DNA of 64,000 bases from Ilumatobacteraceae bacterium (lineage in GTDB: Bacteria; Actinomycetota; Acidimicrobiia; Acidimicrobiales; Ilumatobacteraceae): the NCBI GenBank assembly GCA_022425725.1, contig JAKMEY010000043.1, positions 1-64,000 of the forward strand, written 5' to 3'. The notes beneath the pieces were generated by a model. That model was given only the letters and a program-made list of their open reading frames with translations. It had not been told where the DNA came from and searched no databases. The translations under genes were made by a program, and so were the position numbers. Positions 12,757 through 19,838 of this stretch are shown one piece after another; positions within the stretch are counted from its first letter, which is position 1; every line of letters begins with the position of its first letter.

Positions 12757-13203
12757 ATGAAGACCTATACACCTAAGGCGAGTGAGATCACCCGAGAGTG
12801 GCACATCGTCGACGCTGAGGGAATGATCCTCGGTCGCCTCTGCACCGAAGTCGCCCGTTTGCTCCGCGGCAAGCACAAGCCAATCTTTGCACCACACATC
12901 GACACCGGTGATCACGTCATCATCGTGAACGCCGACAAAGTCGTGATGACCTCCGGAAAAGAGAGCCGTCAGATGATCTACCGCCACTCGGGATATCCGG
13001 GTGGGTTGAAGAGCGAGTCGTTCGCGGAACTTCTCGATCGCAAGCCAGCTGACGCAGTGCGTCGAAGCGTCCGCGGCATGTTGCCAAAGGGCCGTCTTGG
13101 TCGTCAGCAGATGACGAAACTCAAGGTCTACGCCGGACCAGATCATCCGCACCAAGCACAGTCCCCAACCCCGCTCGCGGTGCCTGGTGCCGCAGCCCGC
13201 TGA
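12757..13203 (+). CDS. rplM: 50S ribosomal protein L13
   Basis: L13 is an early 23S rRNA-binding protein. The KTYTPKASEITREWHIVDAEG start, HIDTGDHVIIVNADKV, and the VRGMLPKGRLGRQQMTKLKVYAGPDHPH end of the domain are canonical. At 148 residues it is usual. It is followed 19 nt later by rpsI, the universal L13-S9 pair. Confidence 0.97.
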   Translation: MKTYTPKASEITREWHIVDAEGMILGRLCTEVARLLRGKHKPIFAPHIDTGDHVIIVNADKVVMTSGKESRQMIYRHSGYPGGLKSESFAELLDRKPADAVRRSVRGMLPKGRLGRQQMTKLKVYAGPDHPHQAQSPTPLAVPGAAAR

Positions 13204-13222: not shown

Positions 13223-13615
13223 ATGAGCACTCCTCTCACGCAAACAACCGGCCGCCGTAAAGAGGCCGTCGCCCGAGCTCGGCTTCGTGAAGGCTCAGGT
13301 GTCGTGACCATTAACGGTCGTGCATTTGATGCTTACTTCCCAACCGCGGCACAGCGCATGGTCGTTTCAGAAGCTCTCCGGGTTGCCGATGTCGAAGATC
13401 GCTTTGACATTGACGCATCGATTCACGGTGGCGGCGTTTCTGGTCAGGCAGATGCGCTTCGCATGGCGATCGCTCGTTCACTTGTCGATCTTGATCCCGA
13501 AACTCGTCCAGCGTTGAAGCGGGCTGGTCTCCTCTCTCGAGACTCACGAAAGAAAGAGTCGAAGAAGTACGGCCTCAAGAAGGCCCGCAAGGCTCCTCAG
13601 TACACGAAGCGCTGA
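13223..13615 (+). CDS. rpsI: 30S ribosomal protein S9
   Basis: S9 reaches the P-site tRNA with its C-terminal tail. The GRRKEAVARARLREGSG stretch, GGGVSGQADALRMAIARSL, and the terminal basic tail ending in YTKR are hallmarks. At 130 residues it is normal. It is co-oriented with rplM and followed 12 nt later by glmM. Confidence 0.97.
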   Translation: MSTPLTQTTGRRKEAVARARLREGSGVVTINGRAFDAYFPTAAQRMVVSEALRVADVEDRFDIDASIHGGGVSGQADALRMAIARSLVDLDPETRPALKRAGLLSRDSRKKESKKYGLKKARKAPQYTKR

Positions 13616-13627
13616 TCAGGCAGCCCG

Positions 13628-14977
13628 ATGCGTTTTGGCACCGACGGTGTCCGCGGGAGGGCGCATAGCGAACTCACCGAAGCGATGGCATCCGACCTTG
13701 GTCGGGCCATCGCTCGTGTGTTTTCCGGAACCCCTGTGGTCATCGGAGGCGACAGCCGCGAGTCGACCCCTGCATTCATCACTGCGGTATCACAAGGGTT
13801 GATCAATGGTGGGGCGGAAGTCGAGTCGCTCGGAATGGTGCCCACTCCGGTCGTCGCCGCTGAATCGGCGAGAAGAAACGCAGTCGGTGTTGTCATCTCG
13901 GCGTCTCACAACCCGTTCTTCGATAACGGCATCAAGGTGTTCGGCCCCGGCGGGGCCAAACTCTCAACCGAGACAGAGGCACAGATTGAAGCTGAGTGGA
14001 ATCGGCAGGATGCCCCCGACGTGGTTGCTAAGCCTTCGGGAAACATGACCACCGGAGAGATGGCTGTCGTACAGGTTCGCTATCTCGAGCGCATCACCAG
14101 TGCGATCGAACAACGATCGCTGCAAGGGATCCGTGTGGTTGTCGACGCAGCAAATGGCGCCGCCTCTGAACTTGCTGGCGAGGTTTTTGCTTCGGTCGGT
14201 GCCGATGTCATCGTCATTCACGCTGACCCGAATGGCACCAATATCAACGACGGCTGTGGAGCGACTCACACGCAAAGCCTGCAAGAGGCGGTACTTGCCT
14301 ATGGTGCTGATGTCGGGCTTGCACTCGATGGTGATGCCGATCGGCTCATTGCTGTTGACCATCTCGGCAATGTCGTCGACGGCGATCGGGTCATCGCCAT
14401 TCTCGCAAGCGACATGCGCTCGCGAGGCATGCTCACCGGTAACACCGTTGTGGTGACGGTCATGGCGAACCTTGGTTTTCGTCGAGCAATGAACACCGCG
14501 GGCATCGAGGTGGTCGAAACACCAGTGGGGGATCGCCATGTTCTTGAGGCATTGATCGAGGGCGGGTTTTCTCTGGGTGGTGAACAGTCAGGCCACATCA
14601 TCATTCCGGCTCACGCAACGACCGGTGACGGCATGCTGACAGGAGTCGTGTTGCTCGATGCAGTTGTCCGCTCTGGCAAGTCACTTGCCGAACTGTCATT
14701 TGCATCGATGAACTCGTATCCGCAGGTACTCATCAACGTTTCGGTTCCGGTACGTGGTGAAGTTCCAGATGAGGCCATTCGCGAGGTTCGGCGAGAGCTC
14801 GAGGGCGAACTCGGCGAAGATGGCAGAATTCTCATCAGGCCAAGCGGTACTGAACCTCTCGTTCGTGTGATGGTCGAAGCTGCCCTCCAGGCGGACGCCG
14901 AACGAATCGCTACGACGCTCGCCGATGCCATTGAACGGTCATATGAGCCGATGAATGACGACGACGGCGACGAGTAG
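13628..14977 (+). CDS. glmM: Phosphoglucosamine mutase
   Basis: GlmM interconverts glucosamine-6-phosphate and glucosamine-1-phosphate on the way to UDP-GlcNAc. The phosphoserine loop is VISASHNPFFDNG (catalytic Ser about residue 93). The metal loop is LDGDADR, the sugar-binding loop is GGEQSGHIII and the phosphate loop is RPSGTEPLVRVM. At 449 residues it is full length. It sits 12 nt after rpsI and is followed by glmS, so two steps of one pathway are adjacent. Confidence 0.97.
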   Translation: MRFGTDGVRGRAHSELTEAMASDLGRAIARVFSGTPVVIGGDSRESTPAFITAVSQGLINGGAEVESLGMVPTPVVAAESARRNAVGVVISASHNPFFDNGIKVFGPGGAKLSTETEAQIEAEWNRQDAPDVVAKPSGNMTTGEMAVVQVRYLERITSAIEQRSLQGIRVVVDAANGAASELAGEVFASVGADVIVIHADPNGTNINDGCGATHTQSLQEAVLAYGADVGLALDGDADRLIAVDHLGNVVDGDRVIAILASDMRSRGMLTGNTVVVTVMANLGFRRAMNTAGIEVVETPVGDRHVLEALIEGGFSLGGEQSGHIIIPAHATTGDGMLTGVVLLDAVVRSGKSLAELSFASMNSYPQVLINVSVPVRGEVPDEAIREVRRELEGELGEDGRILIRPSGTEPLVRVMVEAALQADAERIATTLADAIERSYEPMNDDDGDE

Positions 14978-14986
14978 GCTGATCAA

Positions 14987-17900
14987 ATGTGCGGGATTAT
15001 TGCGGTACTCAGTCGTCGTGACGGTCGCACACCGCCGACAGCCGCTGAGTTGTCGACATTGCTCGCAACGGCACTTGATTCTGTCGCAACCGACCCTGCT
15101 GGAGCCGCCAGTGTGCTGACTGCAGTCGACAAAGCGTTGCGCGGCGTCCCTGGGGTGATCGCGCTGACAAACGAAGCAGAACTTGTCGATTCGATCATCG
15201 CGGCACTTGCCGACATCGAGGGCAAGGTTGCTGAACTCGAGGCGGAAGTCGAATCTGGGACACGCGACGATGATGCAGCCGTGATCGCTCTTCGTGACGC
15301 GTCATGGGCAATTGGTCGCGACCGCATTCGAACCGCTCAAGAAATTCACGCGCTCGCGGGCGGCGCTTCAGAAGATTCCTTCAATGGTTATCTTTCGATA
15401 CAGCGTGCGCTCTCTGCCCTTGATCGGCTTGAAGTTCGGGGTCGTGACTCGGCGGGAATTCATGTCATGGTTAGTGACCACGGGCTTGCTGTCGACGACC
15501 CTTTTGTCGCTCAGCAACTTTCCGAGCGGTCGAATGACGCCCTCTTTCGCTCACGTTCGGTTCGATGGGTCGATACGACGAGTGGACCGGTGTTGTCGTT
15601 TGTCTACAAAGCAGCGGCTGAGATCGGTGAGCTTGGCGATAACACAGCCTCGATTCGACAGGAGGTTCGCTCCGATGGGTTGTTGCGAGCCGTACTGTCA
15701 TCACCAACCGCAGTGACTGCGGTGCTGGGTCATACGAGGTGGGCGAGTATTGGGGTGATCTCGGAAGCAAACGCACACCCGTTGAACAGCGAAGAACACG
15801 AGGCGATTACTGGCCCGTACGTGGTCGGGGTGTTGAACGGTGACGTCGATAATTACGCAGATCTCAGCCGACGTTTCGGGCTACAGATTCATCATCAGAT
15901 CACGACCGATGCGAAGGTGATTCCAACAATGACCTCCCGCCGTATTGGCGAGGGCCTTGACCCGGTCGAAGCGTTTAGACGTTCGGTGAATGAATTCGAA
16001 GGCTCGGTTGCTATCGGAGCGATTGCCGCTGATCGCCCACAGCATCTCATGCTGGCGCTTCGCGGAAGTGGCCAGGGGGTGTATGTGGGTATCACCGATG
16101 ACGGGTACATCATCGCAAGCGAGCCGTATGGCGTTGTCGAAGAGACCGACCGATACATGCGCCTCGATGGGGAAGCCGGTGGAGAAATTCTCGTCGTCGA
16201 CCTCAATCGTGCGGGCCTCGATGGGCTGCACCGCCGTGCGTATTCCGGTGCCGAGATGCCGATTCAAGATGATGACGTTCTGAGCGCAGAGGTCACGACA
16301 CGTGATATCGACCGCGGAGACTCACCTCACTATCTGCTGAAAGAAATTCAAGAATCGCCCCGATCATTTCGGCGAACCCTTCGAGGTCGAATCGACGAGC
16401 ATGATGGAACTCCTGTCATCAAGCTCCCCGAGAGCTCGGTGCCAACAGCGGTGCGTGAGCGGCTCGCAGCGGGACATATCTCCCATGTTCGGGTGATTGG
16501 TCAAGGTACGGCCGCCGTTGCCGGTCAGGGTGTTGCTGCAATTCTTCGAGAGCTATGTGAAGGAGATCTTGACGTCGATGCCGTGACAGCGACGGAAATC
16601 TCAGGTTTCCAACTTCGAGCCGACATGTCAGACACGCTGATCGTTGCTGTCAGCCAAAGTGGGACGACAACCGACACCAACAGGACGGTCGACTTGTTGC
16701 GGTCTCGGGGAGCGCCAGTTATTGCAATCGTGAACCGGCGCGGAAGTGATCTTGCGGTTAAAGCAGATGGAGTGGTGTACACATCTGACGGCCGAGATGT
16801 CGAAATGAGTGTTGCATCAACGAAGGCGTTCTACGCACAAGTTGCAGCTGGAGCGCTCCTCGCATGCGTGATCGCTACGTCGGCTGGAATCGGAAGCGAA
16901 CGGCGACGTGAGCGGTTGATCCGCTCACTACAAGAGATGCCTTCAGCGATGGAGAAGGTGCTGAGCCTTCGATCATCGATCGCCGAAATTGCCGCCGCGA
17001 GTGGCCCTTCGAAGCGTTACTGGGCCGTTGTTGGTAACGGCCCCAACCTTGTCGCTGCTCACGAGGTTCGCATCAAACTGAGTGAGCTCTGTTATAAGTC
17101 GATCGCTGCAGATGTCACCGAAGATAAAAAACACATCGATCTCTCGAGCGAGCCCCTGATCTTTGTGTGCGCGGCCGGCCTTCAGGGTTCAACCGCAGAC
17201 GATGTCGCCAAGGAAACTGCGATCTTTAACGCTCATAAGGCAACCCCGATCGTGGTCTGCGATGAGGGTCAAACCCGGTTCTCAGTAGGCATGGTGATCG
17301 AGGTGCCTGTTGTTGACGCAGCGCTTGGATTCATTTTGTCGGCCATGGTTGGCCACCTCTTCGGCTATGAAGCGGCACGAGCGATCGACCGGTCGGCGCT
17401 TCCTTTGCGTGCAGCTCGAGATGTCATCGAACGATCGATCGAGTCTGATGAAACAGCTGACGATCTGATTGTTCACCTTGCAGAAGATATTCAGGTGCAC
17501 ATCCGTGACTTTGAAGAGGGTATGCGAGCAAGGATCTATGACGGGCACCTCGATGCCTCAACTGCAGTCCGGGTGAGTTCTGCAATCGGCTTTGTGCGGT
17601 CGCGTCGACCCGTTGAAGATTTCACGATTGCAACAGGCAATATCGGAACTCCTGAACTTGTCATCGCTGAAGTCGTCGATGCACTCTCTGCTGCGATCGA
17701 CGAACTCACTCGCCCGATTGATGCCATTAAGCACCAAGCGAAGACGGTTACCGTCGGAATTTCTCGCAGTGATTCTGACCTCGTTGACAACGCTCTTGTG
17801 CAAGCGGTGATGTCACGTGGGGCTGGACGAGATGTTGTGTCGTATCGGTCGCTCAAGGTGCTTGCTGCACTTGATGCAGCAGTCGCTGAAGTGACGGGTG

Positions 17901-18322
17901 CAACGCGTTATGGCATCGTTGGTGAATCGATTTCAGTCGTAGATCGCGACGGTGTTGCGACAACCCTCTCGAGTCGTGTTGATGGCGACCCAGCGTTGAC
18001 CGGTACAAAGCGGTACGTCGCTGAACAGCGAGACGTGCTGGTGGCCCGCGGTCGACGTGATGACCGAACGGTCATTCTGGTGCCCGAGACGAAAGCGGGT
18101 GTGTGCACCGGTCTCATGCTGTTGCACGTGAATTTCCACGATCACGTGCCGGTTGACGATGCCCGAATCTTCTTGCAGGGCTACGACAACCGCTACGAAC
18201 GTCTCGTCGACTGGGTGACGGAAACCGAAGGCACGTTCGACGAGGCAAAGCTCGCCGAAGTGTCGGTTGCCGACCTCCTCATTCTGCCGATTTCAGAGAC
18301 CGCGAATTACTGGATGTCGTGA
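14987..18322 (+). CDS. glmS: Very long GlmS-like glutamine-fructose-6-phosphate aminotransferase
   Basis: GlmS makes glucosamine-6-phosphate from fructose-6-phosphate and glutamine; normal enzymes have about 600 residues, this one 1111. Cys2 of MCGIIAV is the glutaminase nucleophile. The next motif, LEVRGRDSAG (148-157), is displaced by an insertion of about 120 residues with a coiled-coil-like stretch. GHTRWA (248-253), NAHP and LNGDVDN follow. SIS1 spans about 500-640 (SQSGTTTDT, SVASTKAF) and SIS2 about 678-800 (KLSELCY and EDKKH in place of the usual GELKHGP). About 280 residues after SIS2 match nothing I recognise, and the usual LAKSVTVE end is missing. The frame is open throughout. It lies between glmM and acpS, where glmS is expected. 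Confidence 0.85.
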   Translation: MCGIIAVLSRRDGRTPPTAAELSTLLATALDSVATDPAGAASVLTAVDKALRGVPGVIALTNEAELVDSIIAALADIEGKVAELEAEVESGTRDDDAAVIALRDASWAIGRDRIRTAQEIHALAGGASEDSFNGYLSIQRALSALDRLEVRGRDSAGIHVMVSDHGLAVDDPFVAQQLSERSNDALFRSRSVRWVDTTSGPVLSFVYKAAAEIGELGDNTASIRQEVRSDGLLRAVLSSPTAVTAVLGHTRWASIGVISEANAHPLNSEEHEAITGPYVVGVLNGDVDNYADLSRRFGLQIHHQITTDAKVIPTMTSRRIGEGLDPVEAFRRSVNEFEGSVAIGAIAADRPQHLMLALRGSGQGVYVGITDDGYIIASEPYGVVEETDRYMRLDGEAGGEILVVDLNRAGLDGLHRRAYSGAEMPIQDDDVLSAEVTTRDIDRGDSPHYLLKEIQESPRSFRRTLRGRIDEHDGTPVIKLPESSVPTAVRERLAAGHISHVRVIGQGTAAVAGQGVAAILRELCEGDLDVDAVTATEISGFQLRADMSDTLIVAVSQSGTTTDTNRTVDLLRSRGAPVIAIVNRRGSDLAVKADGVVYTSDGRDVEMSVASTKAFYAQVAAGALLACVIATSAGIGSERRRERLIRSLQEMPSAMEKVLSLRSSIAEIAAASGPSKRYWAVVGNGPNLVAAHEVRIKLSELCYKSIAADVTEDKKHIDLSSEPLIFVCAAGLQGSTADDVAKETAIFNAHKATPIVVCDEGQTRFSVGMVIEVPVVDAALGFILSAMVGHLFGYEAARAIDRSALPLRAARDVIERSIESDETADDLIVHLAEDIQVHIRDFEEGMRARIYDGHLDASTAVRVSSAIGFVRSRRPVEDFTIATGNIGTPELVIAEVVDALSAAIDELTRPIDAIKHQAKTVTVGISRSDSDLVDNALVQAVMSRGAGRDVVSYRSLKVLAALDAAVAEVTGATRYGIVGESISVVDRDGVATTLSSRVDGDPALTGTKRYVAEQRDVLVARGRRDDRTVILVPETKAGVCTGLMLLHVNFHDHVPVDDARIFLQGYDNRYERLVDWVTETEGTFDEAKLAEVSVADLLILPISETANYWMS

Positions 18323-18687
18323 TGATCGGTGTCGGCGTTGACGTTGTCGACATCGAGCGATTTCGTCGTTCGCTGGCTCGAACACCGTCGATGCGAACCC
18401 GGCTGTTTACCGACGCCGAACTCGACTCGCTGTCAGGCCGTGTCGATGACGTGCCTGGGCTTGCCGCTCGTTTTGCTGCCCGAGAAGCATCGATGAAGGC
18501 CCTTGGTCTTGGGCTTGGAGCGTTCGGATTTCACGACGTGTCGGTGACGAAAGCCGAAAGTGGTGCTCCATCGTTGCTTGTTGTCGGAAGAGCGTTTGAA
18601 CTCGCAACTGAAGCAGGGGTCGAGCGTTGGCATCTCAGCCTGTCCCACGGTGACAGCGTGGCGATCGCGCAGGTGGTTGCTGAGTGA
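18322..18687 (+). CDS. acpS: Holo-[acyl-carrier-protein] synthase
   Basis: AcpS transfers 4'-phosphopantetheine from CoA to acyl carrier protein. The IGVGVDVVDIERF start with the metal-binding Asp, the AARFAAREASMKALG motif and the HLSLSHGDSVAIAQV end are typical. At 121 residues it is normal. The ATG shares its first base with the glmS stop (TGATG); GTG three bases earlier is an alternative. The downstream alr start overlaps its own stop. Confidence 0.94.
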   Translation: MIGVGVDVVDIERFRRSLARTPSMRTRLFTDAELDSLSGRVDDVPGLAARFAAREASMKALGLGLGAFGFHDVSVTKAESGAPSLLVVGRAFELATEAGVERWHLSLSHGDSVAIAQVVAE

Positions 18688-19838
18688 TGAAGGAAGATCT
18701 CTCGTTGCAGCGATGGTCGGGGGTGGATGTCGACACCAACGCCATCGAGAGCAATATGCGTCACCTTGTGGAGCGATGTGCACCAAGTTCTGTGTGGGCA
18801 GTGGTGAAGGCGAATGGCTACGGGCACGGTGCGATAACGGTGAGTCGGTCAGCTGTTGCGGGTGGCGCCAGTGGCCTCGCCGTTGCGCTCGTGCAAGAGG
18901 CTGCTGAGTTACGTCACGCCGGCATTGAGTCGCGGATATTGGTGTTGAGCGATCAGCCTCACGAGCAATATGAGGCGCTTCTCAATGCAAACGCCGAAGT
19001 GATGGTGTATCGGTCGGAGTCGATCGACGCTCTTGGAGCGGTCGCACAGCAACGCGGCGTGATTGCGAGAGTTCACCTCAAAGTCGATACCGGAATGCGC
19101 CGAGTTGGTGCAGAACCTTCGTCTGCCGAGGCGCTGCTGGCAAGCATTCAGCAGCACCCCAATCTTCAACTTGTCGGTGTGGCGACCCATTTCGCGACAG
19201 CTGACATACCTGGTCATCCCGGAATTGCTCAGCAGAGTGACGAGTTTGCGTCGGTGACCTCACTTGTTGAATCCGACACCGAAATTCACATGGCAAACTC
19301 TGCGGCGGCGTTGTCGGTGCCTGATAGTCGGTACACCTACGTACGAGCGGGCATTGCGCTGTATGGCATTGACCCGTCCACTGATCTCACACTCGATCGA
19401 GATGTGTTTTCGGCTGCGCTGCGCTGGTGGGCTCGGGTGTCGTACGTGAAAGTGGTTGAAGCGGGGGAGCACGTGTCGTATGGATGGCGATATCAAACGG
19501 CTCAACGCACGCGGCTCGCAACTATTCCCGTCGGGTATGCCGATGGAGTCCCTCGTCGATGGTCTGAAGTTGGTGGCGTGGTGCTCATTGGTGGTCGCCG
19601 GCGACCTGTCGTCGGCGTGGTGACCATGGATCAACTCGTGGTCGATCTTGGTCCCGAAGATGAGAATGACCCGATTGATATCGGAGATGAGGTCGTAATC
19701 ATCGGCCGCCAAGGTAACGAGCAGCTCATGGTCGAAGAGTGGGCAGAACGACTGGGCACGATCGGTTACGAGATCGTCTGCCAGATCAGCGGGCGCGTTC
19801 CGCGACGAGCAGTGGGGTTGCCGACTGAGCAGTCGTAG
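18687..19838 (+). CDS. alr: Alanine racemase
   Basis: A PLP enzyme that makes D-alanine for peptidoglycan. The PLP lysine lies in WAVVKANGYGHGA near the N terminus. VDTGMRRVG, the catalytic-region YVRAGIALYGIDP and the C-terminal VTMDQLVVDLG and GDEVVIIG stretches are family signatures. The length of about 383 is normal. The start at 18687 shares a base with the acpS stop (TGATG); GTG 18684 is an alternative. Its place between acpS and tsaE is typical of actinobacteria. Confidence 0.96.
   Translation: MKEDLSLQRWSGVDVDTNAIESNMRHLVERCAPSSVWAVVKANGYGHGAITVSRSAVAGGASGLAVALVQEAAELRHAGIESRILVLSDQPHEQYEALLNANAEVMVYRSESIDALGAVAQQRGVIARVHLKVDTGMRRVGAEPSSAEALLASIQQHPNLQLVGVATHFATADIPGHPGIAQQSDEFASVTSLVESDTEIHMANSAAALSVPDSRYTYVRAGIALYGIDPSTDLTLDRDVFSAALRWWARVSYVKVVEAGEHVSYGWRYQTAQRTRLATIPVGYADGVPRRWSEVGGVVLIGGRRRPVVGVVTMDQLVVDLGPEDENDPIDIGDEVVIIGRQGNEQLMVEEWAERLGTIGYEIVCQISGRVPRRAVGLPTEQS

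Follow-up and report, generated by a model that had tools for sequence, protein, structure and literature searches.

A giant GlmS homologue with three inserts and a domain beyond its catalytic tail probably replaces normal GlmS across most of the order Acidimicrobiales

GlmS, the glutamine--fructose-6-phosphate aminotransferase or glucosamine-6-phosphate (GlcN-6-P) synthase, catalyses the opening step in the synthesis of sugars for the bacterial cell wall, and it commits both carbon and nitrogen to that wall. A 64,000-nucleotide stretch of DNA from an Ilumatobacteraceae bacterium (assembly GCA_022425725.1, contig JAKMEY010000043.1, positions 1 to 64,000; the whole stretch is termed the window) encodes a GlmS homologue of 1111 residues, termed the giant. 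A sequence-only reading of the window had described this protein and had proposed that its extra parts could be regulatory or that it may catalyse a related reaction. The locus raises the question of whether the giant is the GlmS of its host and, if so, what the added parts contribute. Our analysis indicates that it is very probably the working GlcN-6-P synthase of the source bacteria. The explanation as a whole, to which we assign a probability of roughly 0.8, is that the giant is the organism's GlmS and that an extra domain, which may sense a ligand, is attached to its catalytic tail, the sensor being the weak part. This explanation draws on features seen directly, namely, homology, residue conservation, a single copy in the genome, a slot in common with canonical glmS, a near-exclusive distribution and the predicted fold. 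The giant presumably produces GlcN-6-P; metabolite binding by the end domain and control of activity are suggested more weakly by the predicted model.

Conservation of the catalytic machinery was examined in an alignment of 51 giants and 10 canonical GlmS proteins of the same order, 9 of 60 giant loci having been dropped beforehand as near-duplicate or incomplete. At 15 catalytic or substrate-contact positions, 14 were identical in all 51 giants. The glutaminase part had the Cys nucleophile together with the glutaminase residues Arg, Asn, Gly and Asp of the GlmS/GFAT superfamily in 51 of 51, in agreement with the earlier description of Cys2 and the glutaminase motifs, and the isomerase residues of that superfamily (Lys697, Glu700 and His716) were equally invariant. 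The isomerase loop GELKHGP had been reported as altered to EDKKH; the letters were read correctly, and the catalytic His is nonetheless retained as His716. A second alignment, also used for the tree and comprising 49 giants with 11 canonical proteins, overlapped the first (16 giants of the first were removed and 15 other sequences added) and agreed on the conserved positions, except for one Ser replacing Thr508. Residues of human GFAT-1 given in PMC7000685 (Cys2, Asn123, Gly124, Lys558, Glu561, His577, Lys676 and Thr679) correspond, respectively, to Cys2, Asn284, Gly285, Lys697, Glu700, His716, Lys919 and Thr922 of the giant, all of which were invariant in the 49 giants.

The C-terminal VTVE end of GlmS, thought missing in the sequence-only reading, was located inside the chain. 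The canonical AKTVTVE aligned with AKTVTVG at residues 918-924 (51 giants versus 10 canonical proteins), and a KHQAKTVTVG-type motif was present in 119 of 121 giant sequences, the exceptions being a split gene and one sequence with KTITVG. Lys919 of this tail was found in 50 of the 51 aligned giants, the one gap being due to a gene in two frames (L051). This gene, from genome G046, lies in two overlapping frames that meet near residue 720, just past EDKKH, and represents either a frameshift or an assembly error. The catalytic tail of the GlmS/GFAT superfamily is chain terminal; in the giant, 187 residues lie beyond residues 912-924.

A full-length model (50 sequences) had a predicted local distance difference test score (pLDDT) of 87.2 and a predicted template modelling score (pTM) of 0.78, and in it the glutaminase plus double-SIS fold of the GlmS/GFAT superfamily was recovered. 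Human GFAT-1 was the best fold match (6svm_B; Z score, 41.6; 606 aligned residues; root mean square deviation [rmsd], 4.0), with model residues 2-926 on GFAT residues 2-681, the latter being its C-terminus. Residues 441-925 superposed on 243-608 of the Escherichia coli isomerase domain (1moq), and the E. coli glutaminase domain (1xff) was matched with a Z score of 31.2 and an rmsd of 1.7 over 236 aligned residues. As the superpositions reach the ends of GFAT-1 and 1moq, the modelled tail falls on the known tail. The sole segment with a pLDDT below 50, residues 910-930, is this tail; such low confidence fits a mobile loop, yet makes the modelled tail position uncertain. Above cut-off, Pfam matched the glutamine amidotransferase domain GATase_6 (244-379) and one SIS domain; the second of the two SIS domains noted earlier was identified by the NCBIfam GlmS profile match, which extends to residue 799, and by fold.

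Whole-genome searches were consistent with a role for the giant as the host GlmS. It was the only GlmS found in the source assembly (2.13 Mb, 92.7% complete), in which no protein (0/1 genomes) scored over the curated cut-off of a GlmS profile; a second, normal glmS, proposed earlier as a check, was absent from this assembly as well as from the window. Among 61 genomes (the source and 60 relatives), 60 gave a match: 53 had the giant and 7 had a canonical-looking protein only (28-33% identity, frames of 611-733 amino acids), with the one genome lacking both being 72% complete. The giant was present in 36 of 37 genomes of the source family. A sample of 118 Acidimicrobiales genomes contained 72 with the giant, as counted by its C-terminal region and excluding a weak row for G070, 43 with a canonical protein (∼610 amino acids) over the cut-off, none with both and 3 with neither (G070, G090 and G136, the last with a canonical fragment). 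In most of this order, the giant probably takes the place of normal GlmS. The weak match in G070 (E value, 8e-4) was to a 768-amino-acid frame that by eye is not GlmS and was left uncounted. G070 is a 98%-complete assembly from the genus of G119 without a giant or a canonical GlmS, due possibly to loss with salvage or to an assembly gap.

Of 396 genomes sampled from the phylum, 31 carried the giant; they belong to its own order, to two further families of the class and to four families in other classes. Among named genomes, a scan detected at least 571 relatives, of which 80, mostly metagenome-assembled genomes (MAGs) of Acidimicrobiia or Actinomycetota, were kept; 61 of these loci had full-length open frames, while 19 had no full-length frame with an exact KTVTVG motif. 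Two giants (L152 and L172) were on 6- to 7-kb contigs of MAGs titled Planctomycetota and grouped with L084 from the source phylum (support, 0.894). No canonical GlmS was found in these two assemblies. They may reflect transfer or mis-binning, and nothing has been built on them.

The giant gene is a single unbroken open reading frame (ORF), as described previously, and its assignment to the standard glmS position was borne out by rplM, rpsI and glmM upstream and acpS and alr downstream (Table 1); tsaE (Pfam) also lies downstream, after acpS and alr. A survey of the slot covered 150 giant loci, not one per species (at least L081/L093, L091/L094 and L034/L158 seem to be the same loci; L088, L089 and L090 were omitted). 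The gene glmM was upstream in 113 of 124 loci with room for it, and acpS, nnrD or alr was downstream in 132 of 143. The corresponding values at the 10 canonical loci were 9/10 and 7/9. Giant loci without both neighbours were mostly from non-Acidimicrobiia lineages (L081, L084, L091, L093 and L094) or the Planctomycetota-titled MAGs. Family f29 exhibited both states of the slot. G064 and G148 carry glmM, canonical glmS and acpS in this order; in G113, only 62 bp and no gene separate the matches to glmM and acpS, and the same contig (145 kb) also bears a giant, on the same strand and about 9 kb beyond alr. As no canonical GlmS was found in G113, which is 97% complete, a takeover of the GlmS function by the giant is the simplest reading. 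The related reaction proposed in the sequence-only reading is unlikely because the catalytic residues are conserved, the two forms are mutually exclusive in the 115 of 118 genomes having either and the slot is a common one.

The added parts were largely as first described. The insert of about 120 residues behind the N-terminal Cys (insert 1) was mapped, the insert ahead of GHTRWA (insert 2) resolved into three pieces (Table 1) and the stretch beyond SIS2, put at about 280 residues, came to about 310. Structure prediction of the inserted and appended parts, another proposed check, produced all-helical inserts 1 and 3 in the full-length model (insert 1 helices at residues 19-32, 37-50, 53-62, 64-90 and 96-124) and a PAS/GAF-like end domain. 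The inserts recurred in all 51 aligned giants, and purifying selection was detected where the synonymous rate (dS) was usable, with nonsynonymous-to-synonymous ratios (dN/dS) of 0.07-0.12 for the C-terminal domain and 0.06-0.09 for the SIS core, indicating that the inserts are due neither to chance nor to error. The short pieces of insert 2 had ratios of 0.6-1.3 from 6-8 changes, too few for interpretation.

Modelled alone (928-1111), the end domain had a pLDDT of 93.6 and a pTM of 0.90. Its closest solved fold was formed by chain residues 174-358 of mycobacterial L-GDH180 (7jsr; Foldseek E value, 1.2e-3; TM score, 0.50), with a Z score of 9.1, 155 aligned residues, an rmsd of 4.4 and 11% identity. 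The GAF, PAS and Cache sensor domains came next, with Z scores of about 6-7 and none above 7.2; the comparison tool warns that a score below 8 may reflect merely a common arrangement. According to PMC8175468, L-GDH180 has a PAS-type domain in its N-terminal segment that is a proposed metabolic sensor; we infer that residues 174-358 are this domain. Polar residues of the end domain were invariant in 50 sequences, e.g., R997, K1008, D1025, R1027, E1034, H1047, R1069, E1079 and E1081 (in this alignment, 12 of 61 full-length named-genome proteins were left out, 3 because they start with GTG and 9 to keep the set small). From the model, the end domain is a tentative candidate for a ligand sensor, at odds that even at their best are somewhat below even.

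In the preferred explanation, the parts would act as follows. As in other GlmS enzymes, glutamine would be hydrolysed by Cys2 of the N-terminal domain, the ammonia set free would serve the SIS part in converting fructose-6-phosphate to GlcN-6-P and the mobile C-tail, through Lys919, would bridge the glutaminase and isomerase sites. More tentatively, the end domain may bind a metabolite and pull or release the tethered tail, or alter oligomer contacts, thereby setting activity. A more ambitious version, which we consider doubtful, has the PAS/GAF-like end domain as the in-cis metabolite sensor of an order-wide lineage, its ligand directly gating the loop through which glutamine hydrolysis is coupled to amination of the sugar, with the protein having spread at the expense of the ordinary enzyme, in some cases off-slot. 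If true, such gating of the C-tail would be a control of amino-sugar entry that is not known for GlmS or GFAT.

A number of observations weigh against the explanation of the giant as a GlmS with a sensor. On the sensor side, the idea depends on the fold resemblance of a predicted model at the scores given above. No PAS or GAF match to the end domain was detected with Pfam in 20 members scanned, and the names returned were weak and unrelated (e.g., GGDEF_2 with an E value of 0.0076 in 3 of 20). The sequence-only reading had counted a match of the extension to a known domain as grounds for its own rejection; sequence searches of the end domain against the PDB and Pfam returned nothing usable. 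Homology to the PAS-type domain of L-GDH was considered and rejected, as profile comparisons with 5 and then 20 L-GDH sequences were not above shuffled alignments (hhalign score with 20 sequences, 17.6; top of 100 shuffles, 27.4); the fold resemblance is, therefore, claimed as a resemblance only. Genome G119 also manages without the end domain. Its giant (L054/L089), the only one of this kind among the 121 giants of the motif survey, ends in KTVTVGISRR (...RHQAKTVTVGISRR), right behind the tail and one residue past the motif, and is followed immediately by the start of the next gene, indicating that the end domain can be absent, in which case the chain ends like that of canonical GlmS.

On the enzyme side, the NCBIfam GlmS profiles match residues 221-799 at scores below their cut-offs (234.1 versus 418.05 bits for the equivalog TIGR01135; 260 versus 381 bits for the other). 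In 49 of 49 giants at each position, the R-loop Tyr pair is replaced by V/I and R, the Q-loop T by S and H by V/I/L/M, the terminal Glu of the canonical tail by Gly and a phosphate-contact Ser by Ala, the last change being present also in 2 of 11 canonical proteins. Finally, Aquihabitans sp. G128, a relative outside the 118-genome sample whose genome is complete, has a giant in the standard slot (L107) and a canonical copy elsewhere. This canonical GlmS has 604 amino acids (L173, 6720-8534), and a neighbouring gene encodes 5'-3' exonuclease domains of the DNA polymerase I type.

The alternative that survives best accepts a functional GlmS and treats the inserts and end domain as purely structural, providing oligomer contacts or stability with no regulator bound. 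Helical inserts 1 and 3, an end-domain sequence that matches no sensor family, middling fold scores and the lineage without the domain are all compatible with this possibility, to which we give a chance not far short of even. The end domain is, however, under a constraint similar to that on the SIS core, and its many invariant polar residues would be in keeping with a pocket, although an interface could show the same pattern.

An improbable alternative is that the giant is a paralogue that applies GlmS chemistry to another keto-sugar phosphate, with GlcN-6-P being made elsewhere. This would account for the scores under the equivalog cut-offs, the substitutions in the glutamine pocket, the coexistence with canonical GlmS in Aquihabitans and a low core identity to canonical proteins (mean, 29.6%; range, 25-34), with 64% among giants, 51% among canonical proteins and a long branch separating the two in the tree. 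It is opposed by the conserved sugar and catalytic residues, the place beside glmM, the mutual exclusion in the order sample and the status of the giant as the sole GlmS found in the source genome and relatives, including the single-contig G033. In addition, no NagB was found in G000, G012 or G027, though one is present in G033.

Much less probable still is an end domain acting as an acetyltransferase that compensates for a shortened GlmU. The GlmU of the source genome and relatives does lack the C-terminal acetyltransferase part; this candidate was set aside since a short GlmU is common to organisms with canonical GlmS (in G067 and G108, too, the GlmU match stops at about position 344 of 452) and the fold matches of the end domain are of another kind, to PAS/GAF-type sensors. 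Artefact, by gene fusion or misassembly, is suggested by the unusual length only and can practically be dismissed, as the giant recurs in independent assemblies, with full-length frames both in the named-genome loci and in the single-contig assemblies G027, G033 and G038.

As a separate observation, GlmU in the order was matched only over about positions 2-344 of ∼452 (contig C38 of G000, which is L174; L175, L176 and L177). The source-genome GlmU, encoded on a 46-kb contig, consists of a uridyltransferase part about 250 amino acids long. From the sequences, the acetyltransferase part seems to be absent in organisms with either form of GlmS.

Table 1. Positions in the window of the giant glmS gene, its neighbours and the segments of its product
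Feature	Coordinates	Strand	Evidence
rplM	12757-13203	+	Pfam Ribosomal_L13; conserved neighbour upstream of giant glmS
rpsI	13223-13615	+	Pfam Ribosomal_S9; conserved neighbour upstream of giant glmS
glmM (phosphoglucosamine mutase-like), next pathway step, directly upstream	13628..14977	+	Pfam PGM_PMM I-IV
Giant GlmS gene (1111 amino acids; stop codon 18320-18322)	14987..18322	+	ORF; NCBIfam GlmS profiles, 260 and 234 bits; whole-genome search
Residues 1-8, first glutaminase strand with nucleophile Cys2	14987..15010	+	Cys2 in 51/51 giants; segment map
Insert 1, residues 9-136, all-helical (predicted)	15011..15394	+	Absent from 11 canonical GlmS; helices in the model
Glutaminase domain, residues 137-423 (Arg251, Trp252, His264, Asn284, Gly285, Asp308)	15395..16255	+	Alignment; fold match to 1xff
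Insert 2, parts of residues 163-239 (163-187, 195-207, 224-239)	15473..15703	+	Segment map
Isomerase part, two SIS domains, residues 424-802 (Thr508, Ser556, Gln557, Ser558, Thr561, Ser611, Lys697, Glu700, His716)	16256..17392	+	Alignment; Pfam SIS 500-626; isomerase-domain fold matches, Z about 40
Insert 3, residues 803-911 (109 amino acids), helical (predicted), between SIS2 and catalytic tail	17393..17719	+	Segment map; helices to 908
Catalytic C-tail (C-loop), residues 912-924, DAIKHQAKTVTVG, with Lys919 and Thr922	17720..17758	+	Aligned to canonical AKTVTVE
C-terminal domain, residues 925-1111 (187 amino acids), PAS/GAF-like predicted fold	17759..18319	+	Model; fold matches
acpS, start overlapping giant glmS stop	18319..18687	+	Pfam ACPS; coordinates
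alr, alanine racemase	18684..19838	+	Pfam Ala_racemase N and C

A tail tethered at both ends in a large and widespread lineage offers a handle on the required tail motion and on possible regulation of bacterial GlmS, and family f29, with its emptied slot, is a ready case of gene replacement. As the giants score below the GlmS cut-off, automated pathway reconstructions may list glmS as missing in much of the order. No paper describing a giant GlmS was found by title or abstract start among open-licence PMC full texts. New here are the three inserts and the 187-residue C-terminal domain behind the tail; to our knowledge, a fused controller would also be new for GlmS.

The giant shares with canonical GlmS (TIGR01135; E. 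coli 2j6h, 1jxa and 1moq) the N-terminal nucleophile (Ntn) glutaminase and two SIS domains, all catalytic residues examined, the catalytic C-tail and the slot beside glmM. It differs in its length (1111 versus about 610 amino acids), in the three inserts, in an internal tail followed by a further domain, in a core identity of ∼30% and in scoring under the curated cut-off. A free-ended catalytic tail is common to the other characterised GlmS/GFAT enzymes. Human GFAT-1 (6svm and 6r4e), the best fold match up to its C-terminal residue, is described in PMC7000685 as having a common core with added features, a catalytic tail (C-loop) that is the free end of the chain and inhibition by UDP-N-acetylglucosamine (UDP-GlcNAc), a feature of the eukaryotic enzyme; nothing lies beyond its C-tail (residue 681 is the last aligned), whereas the giant has the end domain. 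L-GDH180 (7jsr) is likewise an enzyme of nitrogen metabolism with an appended PAS-type domain and a proposed sensory role (PMC8175468); the domain is N-terminal there and C-terminal in the giant, and the two differ in sequence to the extent described above. GlmS has also been linked to separate control proteins, GlmR in Bacillus subtilis and EIIA-Ntr in Salmonella (PMC7525490 and PMC5024086, respectively). In those systems, control is post-translational and exerted by separate proteins; in the giant, a domain with a putative role is fused in cis and would be the counterpart of such trans-acting control.

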